This document shows positions 11,264 to 17,713 of a DNA stretch of 64,000 bases, one piece after another; the first letter of the stretch is position 1; each line of letters opens with the position of its first letter. The notes beneath the pieces are model-generated. The model was not told the DNA's origin. It did not search any database and saw nothing but the letters and a program-made list of their open reading frames with translations. The translations under genes were made by a program, and so were the position numbers. Source of the stretch: Halobacteria archaeon HArc-gm2. Lineage in GTDB: Archaea > Halobacteriota > Halobacteria > Halobacteriales > Haloarculaceae. Where the stretch lies: assembly GCA_025517465.1 (NCBI GenBank), contig JAOPKE010000011.1:1-64000 (forward strand), written 5' to 3'.

Positions 11264-11462
11264 CGCGACCTCTTCCGGTCGTCCGCGTCGTCTCGCCGGC
11301 TGGGGCGGTGTCGGGACATACGCACGCTACGGGCGAGACCCGGTTAATTGTGTTGCTGAGACTGAACGTCTGGGCCGGCACGGGATCCGACGGCCGGCGG
11401 TCCCTCGCACCGTGGTACACCTCCGCAAGAGTAATACGCGCACAGACCCTCCCACTAACAGA

Positions 11463-12215
11463 ATGGACGTCCACGTGCAGGGTGGGCCCGCCGAACCCTT
11501 TCTCGGGGCTCGCGACGTCTTCGAGACCGAACAGGACCTGGAGCGCCGGGTAACCGTTCGCATCCGCGAAGACCCCGACGAGCGAACCCGCGTGAGCCAC
11601 GACGCGGAGAGCCACCTGCTCACCATCTCCCGACAGGCGGCGACGAGCGCGATGGCCAGGGAACTCGCCCTCCACGAGTTCGCACACATGGCCCGCTACG
11701 AGCAGGGACACCCCTCACACACGCAGTCGACGGAGGAGGCCATCTACCTCGCGCTGGCCGGCCGGAGCGTCGAACGCCGGAAGCTCTCGCACTGTTATCA
11801 GATCGCCAACCACATGAAGGACATCTACGCCGACGACGTCTGGCTGGGCGTCGCGCCGGCCGACAAACTGGTCACCTTCCTGGAGTCACAGCTGGCGACC
11901 GCCATCGCCGACGTGCCCCACGACCCGCCCGCCGGCCAGCGGCTCACGCCGACGTCGGACCCGGATATCACCGCCGTCAACGCCGCCTTCGCGCTGGCAC
12001 TGGTCGAGCGTCACGACCTCGTCGACGACGACCACCCGATGTACGACATCGCCCGCGTCGCGGCCGACGACGCGCCCCACGTCGGCCTGGCGACGTTCAA
12101 GCGCCACTTCGCCACGCTGGCCAGGGACACCGACGAGAGCACCTACCGGAAGGCCCTCGTCGACGTGACGCGGGAGTACGCCACGGCCAAGCGCGGCGAA
12201 CAGGCGGCGGACTGA
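11463..12215 (+). CDS. DUF5781 family protein with HExxH-like motif
   Basis: A 250-residue protein starting MDVHVQGGPAEPFLG. ALHEFAHMARYEQGHPSH (about residues 75-92) resembles a zincin HExxH (HEFAH) with a downstream Glu (STEEAI), suggesting a zinc peptidase-like fold; activity is unproven. The C-terminal half is helical. The ATG at 11463 is preferred over 11412 because the extension is basic and atypical. It diverges from the pspA-like gene with about 200 nt between them. I identify it with the haloarchaeal DUF5781 family from memory. Confidence 0.75.
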   Translation: MDVHVQGGPAEPFLGARDVFETEQDLERRVTVRIREDPDERTRVSHDAESHLLTISRQAATSAMARELALHEFAHMARYEQGHPSHTQSTEEAIYLALAGRSVERRKLSHCYQIANHMKDIYADDVWLGVAPADKLVTFLESQLATAIADVPHDPPAGQRLTPTSDPDITAVNAAFALALVERHDLVDDDHPMYDIARVAADDAPHVGLATFKRHFATLARDTDESTYRKALVDVTREYATAKRGEQAAD

Positions 12216-12523
12216 CCGGCGCTGCGCGAGGGCCTTTCTCTTCGTTTCGGCTCTGTTTGACCGAGCGCCAGCCATCCGCAACCGTTCGAATCGCGGTGAC
12301 GTTGGCGGCTTCGGCATCTGGTGGTCCTCTCGGTGCCCGAAGCGTCCTGACAGCCGGGTGGTGACGGGGCACGGACCGACGTGACCCGAATCACTAAGGT
12401 TCTGTCAACCGGGATCAACTGTGTGGTTTACGATGTCGGGGGCGACTGGTCGCAGGTGGCGGCCGTTCCGGGCGCGCCGGACTCTGGACCCGACGCGAAC
12501 GACAGACACATCGATTCGAGACG
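12216..12523. other. Intergenic region upstream of the biotin synthesis operon
   Basis: No gene is supported here. It contains the BirA-like operator at 12402-12433, listed separately. About 90 nt of probable 5' leader lies between operator and the ATG at 12524. Confidence 0.6.
12402..12433. promoter_or_regulatory. BirA-like biotin operator before the bioF-bioD operon
   Basis: CTGTCAACC, 14 bases, GGTTTACGA. The right half-site equals seven core bases of the BirA half-site GGTTTAC; the left half (GTCAACC) has one core mismatch. The 14-nt spacing is identical to that of the near-perfect site before bioY. Being 90 nt before the first synthesis gene, it would allow biotinyl-BirA to repress synthesis. 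Confidence 0.65.
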
Positions 12524-13672
12524 ATGGACGAGATCAACTTCGCCGTACTCGGCACTGGAGGTATCGGCAGACGAGCGCTCGACGTCTCGCGAGACAAACC
12601 GCAGCTGACCCCGGTGGCGGCCTGTGACCGCCACGGCGTCGCCGTCGACCACGACGGCCTCGACGTCGCGGAACTGCTGGCCGCGACCGAGGGCAACGTC
12701 GCCAGCGACCCCGAGCATCGCGACGTGGCGAGCGATGGCGGGGCGGCCACCGGTGCGGACGAGGGGCGTCGTTCGGCCGGGGAGCACGGCGGCGTCAAGC
12801 AAACCGGCGCGGACGCTGGGGTCGTCGCCTCCGACCAGGCCGAGCCGACGGAGACGCCGATTGACGATATCATCGCCGAGGCAACCTCGGCAAGCAAGCA
12901 GCACTCTTCGAGTACTGATGGCATCGCCGCGAGCGACCGCATCGACGGCGTGCTGATCGCGCTCCCCAACTTCGAGCACGACTTCGTCCCTCGCGTGGCC
13001 GACCGGTTCGCCGACGCCGGCTACACCGGCGTCCTCGTGGACGTGCTCAAACGCTCGCGAGTGATCGGAATGCTGGACGACCGGGAAGCGGCCTTCGAGG
13101 ACGCGGGGATGACGTTCGTCTGCGGCGCCGGTGCGACGCCCGGCTTCCTCACCGGCGCCGCGGCTATCGCGGCTCAGTCGTTCGTCGAGGTCGAGGAGGT
13201 CGAGATCTGGTGGGGCGTCGGTCTCAGGTCCGGCTACGAGGACAACCGCGGCACCGTCCGTGAGGACGTCGCGCACCTGCCGGGGTACGACATCGACGAC
13301 GCGCGTGCGATGAGCGACGACGAGATCGAGGCGGTCATCGACGAGCACGACGGCGTCATCGAGTTCGAGGACATGGAACACGCCGACGACGTGCTCCTTG
13401 AGCGGGCCGGCGTCTGCGACGCCGCGGACGTGACGGTGGGTGGCATCCTCGACGTTACCTCGGACGAGAAACCGACGACCACGACCGTCAGTGTGACCGG
13501 GCGGACCTTCGACGGCGAGACGGGCACCAACACGTTCCAGCTCGACGACGCGACGAGCATGGAGGCCAACGTCAATGGGCCGGCGCTAGGTTACCTGAAG
13601 GCGGGCGTCCGGCGCAACCGCGCCGGCGAGTACGGCGTCTTCGGCCCGGCCGACCTCATGCCCAGATTCTGA
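12524..13672 (+). CDS. Saccharopine-dehydrogenase-like oxidoreductase, first gene of the biotin operon
   Basis: A 382-residue NAD(P)-dependent oxidoreductase. The Rossmann motif VLGTGGIGRRALD is at residues 8-20. A long acidic insert (about residues 60-130) separates it from the rest of the nucleotide domain (GVLIALPNFEHDF). Family-like CGAGATPGFLTGAA is near residue 205. The stop is 1 nt before the bioF ATG, so they are one transcript. The invariant link to bioF/bioD suggests a role in supplying the pimeloyl precursor or another biotin step; that is inference. Confidence 0.8.
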   Translation: MDEINFAVLGTGGIGRRALDVSRDKPQLTPVAACDRHGVAVDHDGLDVAELLAATEGNVASDPEHRDVASDGGAATGADEGRRSAGEHGGVKQTGADAGVVASDQAEPTETPIDDIIAEATSASKQHSSSTDGIAASDRIDGVLIALPNFEHDFVPRVADRFADAGYTGVLVDVLKRSRVIGMLDDREAAFEDAGMTFVCGAGATPGFLTGAAAIAAQSFVEVEEVEIWWGVGLRSGYEDNRGTVREDVAHLPGYDIDDARAMSDDEIEAVIDEHDGVIEFEDMEHADDVLLERAGVCDAADVTVGGILDVTSDEKPTTTTVSVTGRTFDGETGTNTFQLDDATSMEANVNGPALGYLKAGVRRNRAGEYGVFGPADLMPRF

Positions 13673-13673
13673 G

Positions 13674-14966
13674 ATGCGGGAGGACGACAGCGGTCGCCGG
13701 GCCGGGCCGGAGTCTGCGTCGGGGGCCGATCGGTCTGCCGACCGCGGCTTCGACCCCGCCAGTCGCCTCGCCGCCCGAGAGCGACGCGGCCGCCGACGCG
13801 ACCTCGCGCCGGTCGACCGGGTCGACGCACGGGCGCGACTCGCTCCCGACCCGCGGAGCACTCCGCCCGAGTTCCGCGACGGGGAGCACCTGGTGTTCGC
13901 CGCGAACGACTACCTCGGACTCTCGGGAGACGAACGCGTCCAGCGGGCCGCGGCCGACGCCGCAAGCGAGGTCGGCACCGGCGCGGGGGCGAGCCGACTG
14001 GTGACCGGCGACACGCCCGTCCACCGTGCGCTCGAACGGAACCTGGCCGCGTCGAAGGGGACCGAGCGAGCCCTCGTCTTCTCCTCAGGGTACGCGACCA
14101 ACGTCGGCACCATCGCCGCGCTCGACCCGGACGTGGTCTTCTCCGACGAACGGAACCACGCCAGCATCGTCGACGGCTGCCGACAGGCCGACGCGGAGGT
14201 GGTGGTCTACGACCACTGCGACCCCGACGGCCTCGCGGCAATGATGGACGCTCGCGCGGGCGAGGTCGGTGACGGTGGCGACCCGAGCGACGGGACCGAC
14301 GGCGAGTCCTGGCTGGTCGTCACCGACACGGTGTTCAGCATGGACGGCGACGTCGCGCCCCTCCGGGAACTCTGCGACGTCGTCGAGCGCTTCGGCGCGT
14401 GGCTGATGGTCGACGAAGCCCACGCCACCGGGCTGTACGGCGACGGCGGCGGTATCGTCCAGCGGGAGGGACTCGGCGACCGGGTCCACGTCCAGATGGG
14501 CACGCTCTCGAAAGCGCTGGCGAGCCAGGGCGGCTACGTCGCCGGCAGCGAAGCACTGGTCGAGTACCTGTGCAACGCCGCCCGCCCGTTCGTGTTCTCG
14601 ACCGGGCTGGCCCCGCCTGCCGCCGCGGCCGCGCGGGAAGCACTCCGCATCGCCCAGGAGAACGACCGCCAGGATCGCCTCTGGACGAACGTCGACCGAC
14701 TGCGCGACGACCTCGCGGACGCGGGCTTCGACGTCCGGGGCGACACCCAGATTCTCCCGGTCGTCGTCGGTGACAGCGCGGACGCGATGGCCCTCGACGC
14801 GGAACTCCGCGAACGCGGAATACTCGCCCCAGGTATCAGGCCGCCGACCGTCCCCGAGAGGACCAGCCGCGTCCGCGTGGCCCCGACGGCGAGCCACACC
14901 AAATCGGAGATCGACCGCTGCGTCGCGGCGTTCCGCGACGCGGGGACGGAACTCGACCTGCTATGA
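13674..14966 (+). CDS. bioF: 8-amino-7-oxononanoate synthase
   Basis: A 430-residue PLP enzyme condensing pimeloyl-thioester with L-alanine to make KAPA. Visible: the substrate region FAANDYLGLSGDERV, GTGAGASRLVTGDTPVH, the Asp of the cofactor site in LMVDEAHATGLYG, and the PLP lysine in GTLSKALASQGGY near residue 280. An N-terminal extension of about 30 disordered acidic residues precedes the catalytic domain. It is translationally coupled to its neighbours, overlapping bioD by ATGA at 14963. Confidence 0.93.
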   Translation: MREDDSGRRAGPESASGADRSADRGFDPASRLAARERRGRRRDLAPVDRVDARARLAPDPRSTPPEFRDGEHLVFAANDYLGLSGDERVQRAAADAASEVGTGAGASRLVTGDTPVHRALERNLAASKGTERALVFSSGYATNVGTIAALDPDVVFSDERNHASIVDGCRQADAEVVVYDHCDPDGLAAMMDARAGEVGDGGDPSDGTDGESWLVVTDTVFSMDGDVAPLRELCDVVERFGAWLMVDEAHATGLYGDGGGIVQREGLGDRVHVQMGTLSKALASQGGYVAGSEALVEYLCNAARPFVFSTGLAPPAAAAAREALRIAQENDRQDRLWTNVDRLRDDLADAGFDVRGDTQILPVVVGDSADAMALDAELRERGILAPGIRPPTVPERTSRVRVAPTASHTKSEIDRCVAAFRDAGTELDLL

Positions 14967-15634
14967 CCCGGGATCTCGCCGTCGTCGGGACCGATACCGG
15001 CGTCGGCAAGACCGTCGTCACTGCTGGTCTGGTGGCGACGCTCCGGGCAGACAGCGTCGACGCCCGCGCGATCAAACCCTGCCAGACGGGATATCCTCCG
15101 GACGACGATGCGCGCTTCGTCGCCGACGCCTGCGGGACCGACGAGGCGGCGACCTGTCTCCGCCGGCTGGAACCGCCGCTGGCCCCCGAAGTAGCCGCCA
15201 GGGAAGCGGGTACCGACCTCTCCTACGAGTCGATACTCGGGGACTGCCGGGCGGCCCTTTCCGAGACGGACCGGGGCGTCGTGGAGGGCATCGGCGGGTT
15301 ACGGGTTCCCCTCGCCGACGGCCGTGAGGTTATCGACCTCGTGGCGGACCTCGGCTTGCCCGCCGTGGTCGTCGCCCGGTCCGGACTTGGCACCCTCAAC
15401 CACACGGCCCTGACCGTCGAGGCGTTGCGCCGGCGTGACGTTCCGGTCCGCGGCGTCGTCCTGAACGAGTACGAGGGGGCGTCCGTGGCAGAGCGGACGA
15501 ATCCCGACGTCATCCGGGAGATGACGGACTGTCAGGTAGCGACGCTCCCGCCCGTCGATCTGTCGGACCCGTCTGCCGCCGTCGACGCCGTCGCGGAACA
15601 CCTCCCGCGCTCGCTCGTCGACGACACCGCGTAG
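14963..15634 (+). CDS. bioD: Dethiobiotin synthetase
   Basis: A 223-residue P-loop enzyme that makes dethiobiotin from DAPA, CO2 and ATP. The P-loop GTDTGVGKTVV is at residues 8-18. AIKPCQTGY and GIGGLRVPLADG match substrate and metal regions. It overlaps the bioF stop by 4 nt. No bioA (KAPA aminotransferase) or bioB (biotin synthase) is present in the window, so they must be elsewhere if biotin is made. Confidence 0.93.
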   Translation: MTRDLAVVGTDTGVGKTVVTAGLVATLRADSVDARAIKPCQTGYPPDDDARFVADACGTDEAATCLRRLEPPLAPEVAAREAGTDLSYESILGDCRAALSETDRGVVEGIGGLRVPLADGREVIDLVADLGLPAVVVARSGLGTLNHTALTVEALRRRDVPVRGVVLNEYEGASVAERTNPDVIREMTDCQVATLPPVDLSDPSAAVDAVAEHLPRSLVDDTA

Positions 15635-15657
15635 CAGCGCTGGAGGTCAACCGCGGT

Positions 15658-16374
15658 TCAGAGGAACAGCTTCACGAGCGGCGCCGCCGCCAGGGCCAGG
15701 CCGGCGACGAGTACCGGGTAGTCGGCCCGGCCGAACGCCAGCGCGGGCAACGTCGGGTTCCAGGCGAAACAGCGCGCCTGCAGGGCGATAGCGAGGCGGT
15801 CTGCGCGTTCGAACGCTCGTGTCAGACCGAGCATGCCGATTCGCCGTGCCCGGTCGACAATCGACCGGTTCGACCCGGCGCGGGCCCGCATCGCGTCTCG
15901 CACCGCGACGAGATCTCGGCGGAGGACCGGGACGAAGCGGAACGTCAGCGCGACACCGACGCCGAGGAGCTGCCCGGTCCGGCCCGGGACGTGTCGCTGG
16001 ATGGCAGCCCGCGTCTCGCGGACCGGCGTCGACTGGACGTAGGCCGCGCCGACGAAGAAGACGAGCGCGACTCTCGCGACCTGCATCGCCGGACCGACGG
16101 CGGCCTCGGGAGTGAGCCGGAACGGCAAGACGGACACCGTCGCGAGTACGGGCCCGCCGGCCAGGATCAGGAAGACGAACCAGTAACTCCGGACGACGGC
16201 GACCGGCGAGACCCTGGCGGTGACGAGGACGACCGACGCGACGCCCGCGAGCGCCGCCAGCCACGCCGCGTCGACGCGAGCGAACGCGGCGACGGCGAAC
16301 CCGACCTGGAAGACCATCTTCGACCGCGGGTCCAATCGGTGGGCCAGCGTCTCGCCGGACTCGTAGGTCAGCAT
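15658..16374 (-). CDS. ecfT: Energy-coupling factor transmembrane protein EcfT (BioN)
   Basis: A 238-residue membrane protein starting MLTYESGETLAHRLDPRSK, the usual EcfT N-terminus. It has about five helices and the coupling-helix motifs (VRDAMRARAG and RADRLAIALQARCF). It couples ATP hydrolysis by EcfA to BioY. Its start overlaps the ecfA stop by 7 nt. It converges on bioD. Confidence 0.88.
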   Translation of the reverse strand: MLTYESGETLAHRLDPRSKMVFQVGFAVAAFARVDAAWLAALAGVASVVLVTARVSPVAVVRSYWFVFLILAGGPVLATVSVLPFRLTPEAAVGPAMQVARVALVFFVGAAYVQSTPVRETRAAIQRHVPGRTGQLLGVGVALTFRFVPVLRRDLVAVRDAMRARAGSNRSIVDRARRIGMLGLTRAFERADRLAIALQARCFAWNPTLPALAFGRADYPVLVAGLALAAAPLVKLFL

Positions 16375-17072
16375 GACGGGAGGTCGACGTCCACCGCGGC
16401 GACGGCGTCGCGCACCTCTTCGGGTGGCCCGTCGGCGACGACCCGTCCCTCGTCGAGGGCGACGATCCGGTCTGCCCGGTCGAACAGCTCGCGGAGGTCG
16501 TGGGTGACCACGACGACGCTGGTTCCGTCGCTGCTGAGGGCGTCGAGGTGGTGGAGCACCGACTCGCGGGCCCTGCGGTCCAGTCCGGCGAAGGGTTCGT
16601 CGAGCACGAGGTGGGTGGGTTCCATCGCGAGCGCCCCCGCGATGGCCAGGCGAGACTGCTCGCCCCCGGAGAGCGCGTCGATCCGCTCGTCCTCCCGACC
16701 CGCCAGTTCCACCGCTGCGAGCGCCTCGCGGACGCGCCGATCGATCTCAGACCGGTCAAGCCCGAGGTTCTCCGGGCCGAAGGCGACGTCTGCGCCGACC
16801 GTCGCCGCGACGAACTGGTCGCGGGGGTGCTGGAACACCATGCCGACGCTCGTCCGCGCCGCGACGGGGTTCTCGGTCACGTCGACGCCGTCGACGGTGA
16901 CTCGTCCCTCGTCGGGTTCGAGGAGCGCGTTGCAGTGACGGACGAGCGTCGTCTTCCCGCTCCCGTTGGGGCCGACCACGAGGACGAACTCGCCGTCGTC
17001 GACCGTCACCGACACCGAATCGAGCGCGAGAGCGTCACCGAACCGGTGGGTCACTCCCTCGATGCCGATCAT
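16368..17072 (-). CDS. ecfA: Energy-coupling factor ATPase EcfA (BioM)
   Basis: A 234-residue ABC ATPase starting MIGIEGVTHRFGDALALDSV. Walker A is GPNGSGKTTLV, the Q-loop is VFQHPRDQFVA, the signature LSGGEQSRLAIAG, Walker B HLVLDEPFAGLD and the switch His in VVTHDLREL. QHPRDQ is the usual Q-loop style of ECF ATPases. The ATG overlaps the bioY stop by 4 nt. One ATPase gene for one BioY and one EcfT indicates a dedicated, biotin-specific ECF transporter. Confidence 0.92.
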   Translation of the reverse strand: MIGIEGVTHRFGDALALDSVSVTVDDGEFVLVVGPNGSGKTTLVRHCNALLEPDEGRVTVDGVDVTENPVAARTSVGMVFQHPRDQFVAATVGADVAFGPENLGLDRSEIDRRVREALAAVELAGREDERIDALSGGEQSRLAIAGALAMEPTHLVLDEPFAGLDRRARESVLHHLDALSSDGTSVVVVTHDLRELFDRADRIVALDEGRVVADGPPEEVRDAVAAVDVDLPSC

Positions 17073-17668
17073 GCGGTGACGCCGGCCTGCTCCCTGGCCA
17101 GGACACCCGCCCGCACGAGGCCCAGCGTCGCAGCGACCTTGATCAGGTCCCCGGGGAGGAAGATGGCTGCGCCGACAGTCGCCGCGTGGACGAAGTCGTA
17201 CCCCGCGCTCACTGCCAACCAGGGAACGCCGATGGCGTAGATGACGGCGAGGCCGGCGACCAGCGCGACGGTCTGGGTCCCGAGTGACACCGTCGAGAGC
17301 GGTCTGGGGTCGAGCCCCCGGTGGACGATCAGGCCGATGACGACCGCCGCGACGACCCACGAGAGGATGTAGCCACCGGTCGGCCCGAGCAGGTAGGCGA
17401 GGCCGGCGCCGCCGTTGGAGAACACCGGTGCGCCGGCGACGCCGACGAGCACGTACAGCACCATCGAGAACGCGCCCCAGCGCGGGCCCAGCAGGAGTCC
17501 GGCGAAGAAGACGCCGAACACCTGGAAGGAGATAGGTGCCGGCAGGCCCGGGAGCGGGATGGAGACGTAGGCGAAGGCGGCGGTCAGCGCGGCGAGCACC
17601 GCCGCCAGCGCGACGTGTTTGACCGTCGCGTCACCGACGAGATCGACCGACTCGTGTTCCTGTGACAT
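17069..17668 (-). CDS. bioY: Biotin transporter substrate-binding subunit BioY
   Basis: A 199-residue six-helix S-component starting MSQEHESVDLVGDATVKHVA. The helix region ISFQVFGVFFAGLLLGPRWG and LLGPTGGYILSW are BioY-type. The ATG at 17668 is chosen over 17695 because the TATA box (TTATTTG on the minus strand, 17693-17699) sits 25-31 nt upstream. That box lies inside the spacer of the BirA operator at 17682-17713. First gene of bioY-ecfA-ecfT. Confidence 0.9.
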   Translation of the reverse strand: MSQEHESVDLVGDATVKHVALAAVLAALTAAFAYVSIPLPGLPAPISFQVFGVFFAGLLLGPRWGAFSMVLYVLVGVAGAPVFSNGGAGLAYLLGPTGGYILSWVVAAVVIGLIVHRGLDPRPLSTVSLGTQTVALVAGLAVIYAIGVPWLAVSAGYDFVHAATVGAAIFLPGDLIKVAATLGLVRAGVLAREQAGVTA

Positions 17669-17681
17669 GGCTCTCACTGGG

Positions 17682-17713
17682 CCGTAAACCGACAAATAAC
17701 TGCTGGTTTACGG
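17682..17713. promoter_or_regulatory. BirA-type biotin operator over the bioY promoter
   Basis: CCGTAAACC-N14-GGTTTACGG is a perfect 9-bp inverted repeat. It matches the BirA operator half-site (GTAAACC/GGTTTAC) known from bacteria, with the 14-nt spacing I recall for archaeal and Gram-positive sites. The spacer holds the bioY TATA box, so bound biotinyl-BirA would block TBP. Confidence 0.85.

Follow-up and report, generated by a model that had tools for sequence, protein, structure and literature searches.

Biotin genes and operator sites in the window

The window, by which we mean the whole 64,000-nt stretch of DNA analysed, carries genes for both biotin synthesis and biotin uptake. On the forward strand, bioU (12524 to 13672), which encodes a BioU-like suicide dehydrogenase probably replacing BioA, is followed by bioF (8-amino-7-oxononanoate synthase, 13674 to 14966; TIGR00858, 2.2e-119) and bioD (dethiobiotin synthase, 14963 to 15634; TIGR00347, 121.4 bits with a cut-off of 83.3). 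On the reverse strand lie bioN (EcfT-like transmembrane subunit, 15658 to 16374; PF02361, 6.4e-15), bioM (ECF transporter ATPase, 16368 to 17072; TIGR04520, 3.1e-69) and bioY (biotin S-component, 17069 to 17668; PF02632, 2.7e-39). As in the known BioYMN ECF biotin transporter, the BioY S-component is encoded next to its ATPase and T-component, while the bioYMN genes of the window differ in being preceded by a BirA-type operator, with an archaeal TATA box inside it. A preliminary description of this DNA had named an oxidoreductase-bioF-bioD operon and bioY; its bioF, bioD and bioY are confirmed, and its oxidoreductase is replaced by the BioU-like protein.

The same description had reported two BirA-type operators with identical 14-nt spacing, and we found both palindromes in place. 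The operator before bioU-bioF-bioD (12402 to 12433) reads CTGTCAACC-N14-GGTTTACGA, with arms at 12402 to 12410 and 12425 to 12433, and the operator before bioY (17682 to 17713) reads CCGTAAACC-N14-GGTTTACGG, with arms at 17682 to 17690 and 17705 to 17713. The published BirA consensus is TTGTAAACC-N14/15-GGTTTACAA, as quoted in PMC545781, and both sites agree with the published regulon's operator pattern GTAAACC-N14/15-GGTTTAC. With a 14-nt spacer, this pattern matches the window with no mismatches at 17684 and one mismatch at 12404, as compared to a mean of 0.48 matches at up to three mismatches in shuffled windows.

The source genome comprises 4.25 Mb in 18 contigs and is 99% complete. Nowhere else in it does the pattern occur at up to one mismatch, and a reversed-pattern control at the same threshold returned 0 sites. 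Two mismatches were found at four places, at one of which bioB begins, on a different contig (C1:665311); a third operator thus precedes bioB, outside the window. Another of these places, C14:421115 (L008 1501-1528, G000), precedes a TrmB-like HTH gene and ends in ATGGTTTACGA. It was considered as a fourth operator and judged to be probably a chance match, because it lacks a clear TATA-like element and because the same number of mismatches occurs at two further places away from bio genes.

The product of bioU matched no Pfam family, and aligned to NF047886 (3.7e-97) and to Synechocystis Slr0355 (structures 6ir4 and 6itd, 9.2e-84). Its NF047886 score of 325.3 bits is below the NCBI equivalog cut-off of 600, which was exceeded in none of the 146 genomes of the order; we therefore call the protein BioU-like by homology, lysine and context, and not a certified member of that family. 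Lys176 aligns with the residue replaced in 6itd, Lys124 of Slr0355, and this reactive position is a lysine in all 81 homologues aligned. Compared to the cyanobacterial BioU (Slr0355; PDB 6ir4, 6itd and 6k36-6k38), the whole catalytic part aligns, the reactive lysine is kept and the biotin operon context is shared; the haloarchaeal protein differs by a variable insertion and by an operon with bioB, bioF and bioD. The insertion falls at residues ~55-130, a region that holds 41-91 residues across 81 proteins, and is absent from Slr0355. Among 80 named loci, bioB is directly upstream of bioU in 79, most of which continue with bioF and bioD. In one small-genome member of the order (L229, G011:C76), bioW lies directly beside bioU, the single genome of 146 with BioW.

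No BioA match exceeded its cut-off in the 146 genomes, with the source genome's best score at 279.7 bits versus 405. Similarly, a 2018 survey recorded bioA in 0 of 31 Halobacteria, although bioF, bioD and bioB appeared present (PMC6138646). Cyanobacterial BioU is a suicide enzyme that is spent after one reaction and replaces BioA, according to papers citing Sakaki et al. (2020). The BioU-like protein of the window probably replaces BioA and would be consumed in one turnover. We propose that the missing bioA in Halobacteria is explained by a BioU-like protein, its lysine intact, encoded second in the biotin operon of haloarchaea.

The predicted regulator and the conservation of the sites

The operators had led to the prediction that a BirA with an N-terminal HTH is encoded elsewhere in the genome, and one such protein is present. 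It has ~310 residues with HTH_11, BPL and BPL_C domains; its HTH scores 46.4 bits against PF08279 (cut-off 25), and its alignment with the solved S. aureus and E. coli BirA structures extends over the HTH. Its match to TIGR00122 (2.8e-14, 52.7 bits) is below the cut-off of 70. An ORF close to birA carries a biotin-carrier signature, as read by eye. The genome's second ligase-family gene has no such HTH and, also by eye, looks like a lipoate-protein ligase. In most of the order, relatives of BirA retain the HTH.

At distinct haloarchaeal bioB starts, the site begins exactly at -19 from the start codon in 70 of 71 cases (at up to two mismatches), the exception having a 13-nt spacer. A TATA signal is found at about -29 to -26 in these 71 regions. 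Ahead of the start, the left arm hardly varies (G 99%, T 99%, then A 99%, A 100% and C 97%), while the 14-nt spacer drifts. An upstream operator with a 14-nt spacer precedes 24 of 30 bioY genes at up to two mismatches and 29 of 30 at up to three; all other spacers from 8 to 21 together gave one match in these genes.

Among the 75 order-wide matches listed with at most one mismatch, 43 are before bioY, 18 are before bioB or bioU and 14 were classed as other, three of which are also located at bioB. Sites and regulator co-occur: at the one-mismatch threshold, a site is present in 79 of the 130 genomes counted as HTH-BirA carriers and in 0 of the 16 order members without HTH-BirA (Fisher p ~1e-6, uncorrected for phylogeny). 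The degenerate pattern GTMAACC-N14-GGTTKAC was found in 78 of 146 genomes, compared to 2 for its reversed control. Conservation ahead of bio genes in relatives, which the preliminary description had proposed as a check, is thus observed. The opposing outcomes it had named, a genome with only a BirA devoid of the HTH and repeats that related species do not share, are both contradicted by these data.

Promoter layouts and history of the locus

The bioY operator was said to cover the TATA box, and it does contain a TATA-like element, TTATTTG (17693 to 17699, reverse strand), within its spacer. The centre of this element is ~28 nt before the bioY ATG at 17668, and the bioY transcript is predicted to be leaderless. 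The arrangement is common to relatives, whose bioY genes have a TATA element in the operator spacer and an ATG ~28 nt past its centre. Coverage of the TATA box is nevertheless confined to the bioY operator. At bioU the operator falls between where the TATA box is placed and where transcription is predicted to start, because this promoter appears to be an old bioB promoter. Here the TATA box is a degenerate CACTAAGG (12392 to 12399, forward strand), aligned with CTATAAGG of the bioB promoters in two genomes from the same genus; its centre is 27 nt before the predicted transcription start, a GTG at 12423 that the operator overlaps. This layout, with the operator just past the TATA position and across the predicted start, is identical to that of the conserved bioB operator at -19.

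In the two same-genus genomes, bioB-bioU-bioF-bioD form one operon with one operator, placed between thiC and a P-loop gene (names assigned by eye), and bioN-bioM-bioY are placed between a DUF5781 gene and rps7. In the window, bioU-bioF-bioD occupy exactly the interval from the DUF5781 gene to bioN, while bioB has a different location and an operator of its own. The DUF5781 gene (11412 to 12215) adjoins bioN in the sister genomes, and within the genus it stays syntenic with bioYMN. In four family members, bioB has neighbours other than the genes found upstream of it in the source genome; the present place of bioB is therefore probably not ancestral, or at least not theirs.

The window's bioU promoter resembles the sisters' bioB promoter (GACCCGAAYC..TAAGGTTCYGTCAAC). 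A blastn search of the bioU leader past the operator found no bioB remnant except the promoter match to a sister genome (E 0.002). From the GTG at 12423, where transcription is predicted to begin, an open frame extends for 50 codons or more (VVYDVGGDWSQ..., 12423 to 12573) and runs across the start of bioU in a different frame. Its beginning resembles the original first codons of bioB, which would have stayed in place after bioB moved. The two operators had been described as framing a biotin locus. Both flanking sites exist, but the frame itself appears to be a rearrangement in the source genome's lineage, since the sisters have a single bioB-bioU-bioF-bioD operon with bioYMN elsewhere. The comparison of three genomes suggests that this rearrangement was recent and that each piece kept or regained an operator. 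In another genome (L227, G010), bioU has no bioB upstream and an operator, GTCAACC-N14-GGTTAAC, is located ~110 nt before it, apparently an independent case of the window's arrangement.

A probable BirA regulon at archaeal promoters

Assignment of the window loci to the already known BirA regulon is well supported. The sites follow the published consensus, and the BirA signal is reportedly conserved in Archaea, as the title of a 2002 study by Rodionov, Mironov and Gelfand claims. As in E. coli and B. subtilis, there is a GTAAACC-N14-GGTTTAC palindrome, a bifunctional HTH biotin ligase, and a set of targets comprising bioB, bioF, bioD and bioY. The haloarchaeal sites differ from the bacterial ones in being placed at an archaeal core promoter, in often having C or T at arm position 3, and in outer bases that are usually CG rather than TT/AA. 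The haloarchaeal bioB operator also extends over the start codon, in a gene that appears to be leaderless, and birA is not autoregulated, with an upstream site at up to three mismatches in none of 30 birA genes; the known regulon does not require autoregulation. The analysis broadens the BirA regulon to include haloarchaea and locates its predicted operators exactly within archaeal promoters. Of more interest are the assignment of a BioU-like protein to haloarchaea and the operator at the start codon, and the operator placement is itself informative.

We are highly confident that the window sites are operators of a haloarchaeal BirA regulon, for which we propose the following scheme. When biotin is plentiful, BirA loaded with biotinyl-AMP would dimerise and its N-terminal winged helices would bind the two half-sites. 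At bioY, the BirA dimer would occupy the TATA box and block TBP/TFB. At bioU-bioF-bioD and at bioB, it would lie between the TATA box and the point at which a seemingly leaderless transcript begins, and it could there block either polymerase recruitment or initiation. Repression at both layouts by biotinyl-AMP-loaded BirA is the most likely mode. As unbiotinylated carrier protein accumulates, BirA would be drawn to biotinylation and leave the DNA, and both import (bioYMN) and synthesis (bioB, bioU, bioF and bioD) would be turned on.

Alternatively, another HTH regulator, such as a GntR-, TetR- or TrmB-type protein, could bind the palindromes while BirA acts merely as a ligase. Haloarchaea are rich in wHTH regulators, and bacteria are known to have other biotin repressors, for example BioQ and BioR (PMC4554459 for the latter). 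We nevertheless consider such a regulator improbable: the sequence and spacing of the sites are those of the published BirA consensus (PMC545781), the BirA HTH is kept in most of the order, and the 16 genomes without an HTH-BirA have no site at up to one mismatch. A doubt specific to bioU is that its operator could be a relic of the former bioB promoter that no longer functions, with bioU-bioF-bioD expressed from elsewhere or constitutively. The TATA box is degraded compared to that of the sisters, bioB is gone and a ~100-nt leader is now ahead of bioU, all of which would be expected of a relic. Yet the arms of the bioU operator are one mismatch from the consensus, versus two in the sisters' bioB operators, and no other operator is located nearer to the bioU-bioF-bioD operon; a relic is therefore unlikely, though less so than an unrelated regulator.

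It is also conceivable, though it can practically be dismissed, that what appears as a right half-site, both before bioU and in bioB, is simply conserved coding sequence and that the palindrome is coincidental. The right arm of bioB does fall in codons 1-3, GTG GTT TAC, which encode M-V-Y. But the left arm, upstream of the bioB start, is nearly as fixed while the spacer drifts, the bioY sites have the identical geometry and are wholly non-coding, and the arm, hence the amino acid, has changed in some genomes. In the bioB of G108, G066, G118 and Halalkalicoccus, a right arm of GGTTGAC yields M-V-D, with codon 3 changed from Tyr to Asp, and the bioY operator of G108 has the same base change as its bioB arm. 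Because the changed arm alters the residue and is shared with a bioY operator, these few genomes suggest that selection at the bioB start holds the DNA site rather than the protein.

Under a BirA regulon, these observations can be joined into a broader reading, on which we are evenly divided. Haloarchaea would make biotin through a suicide BioU, at a cost of one ~340-390-residue protein per biotin, and BirA would gate this cost at the core promoter. At bioB, the right half-site would coincide with codons 1-3, start codon included, of an mRNA that has no leader, and the repressor's DNA preference would therefore have dictated the first residues of BioB (M-V-Y, or M-V-D where the arm is GGTTGAC). 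Three loci (L219, L223 and L224) have a bioB with the start-codon operator and no adjacent bioU, bioF or bioD, which suggests that these genomes may only convert salvaged dethiobiotin.
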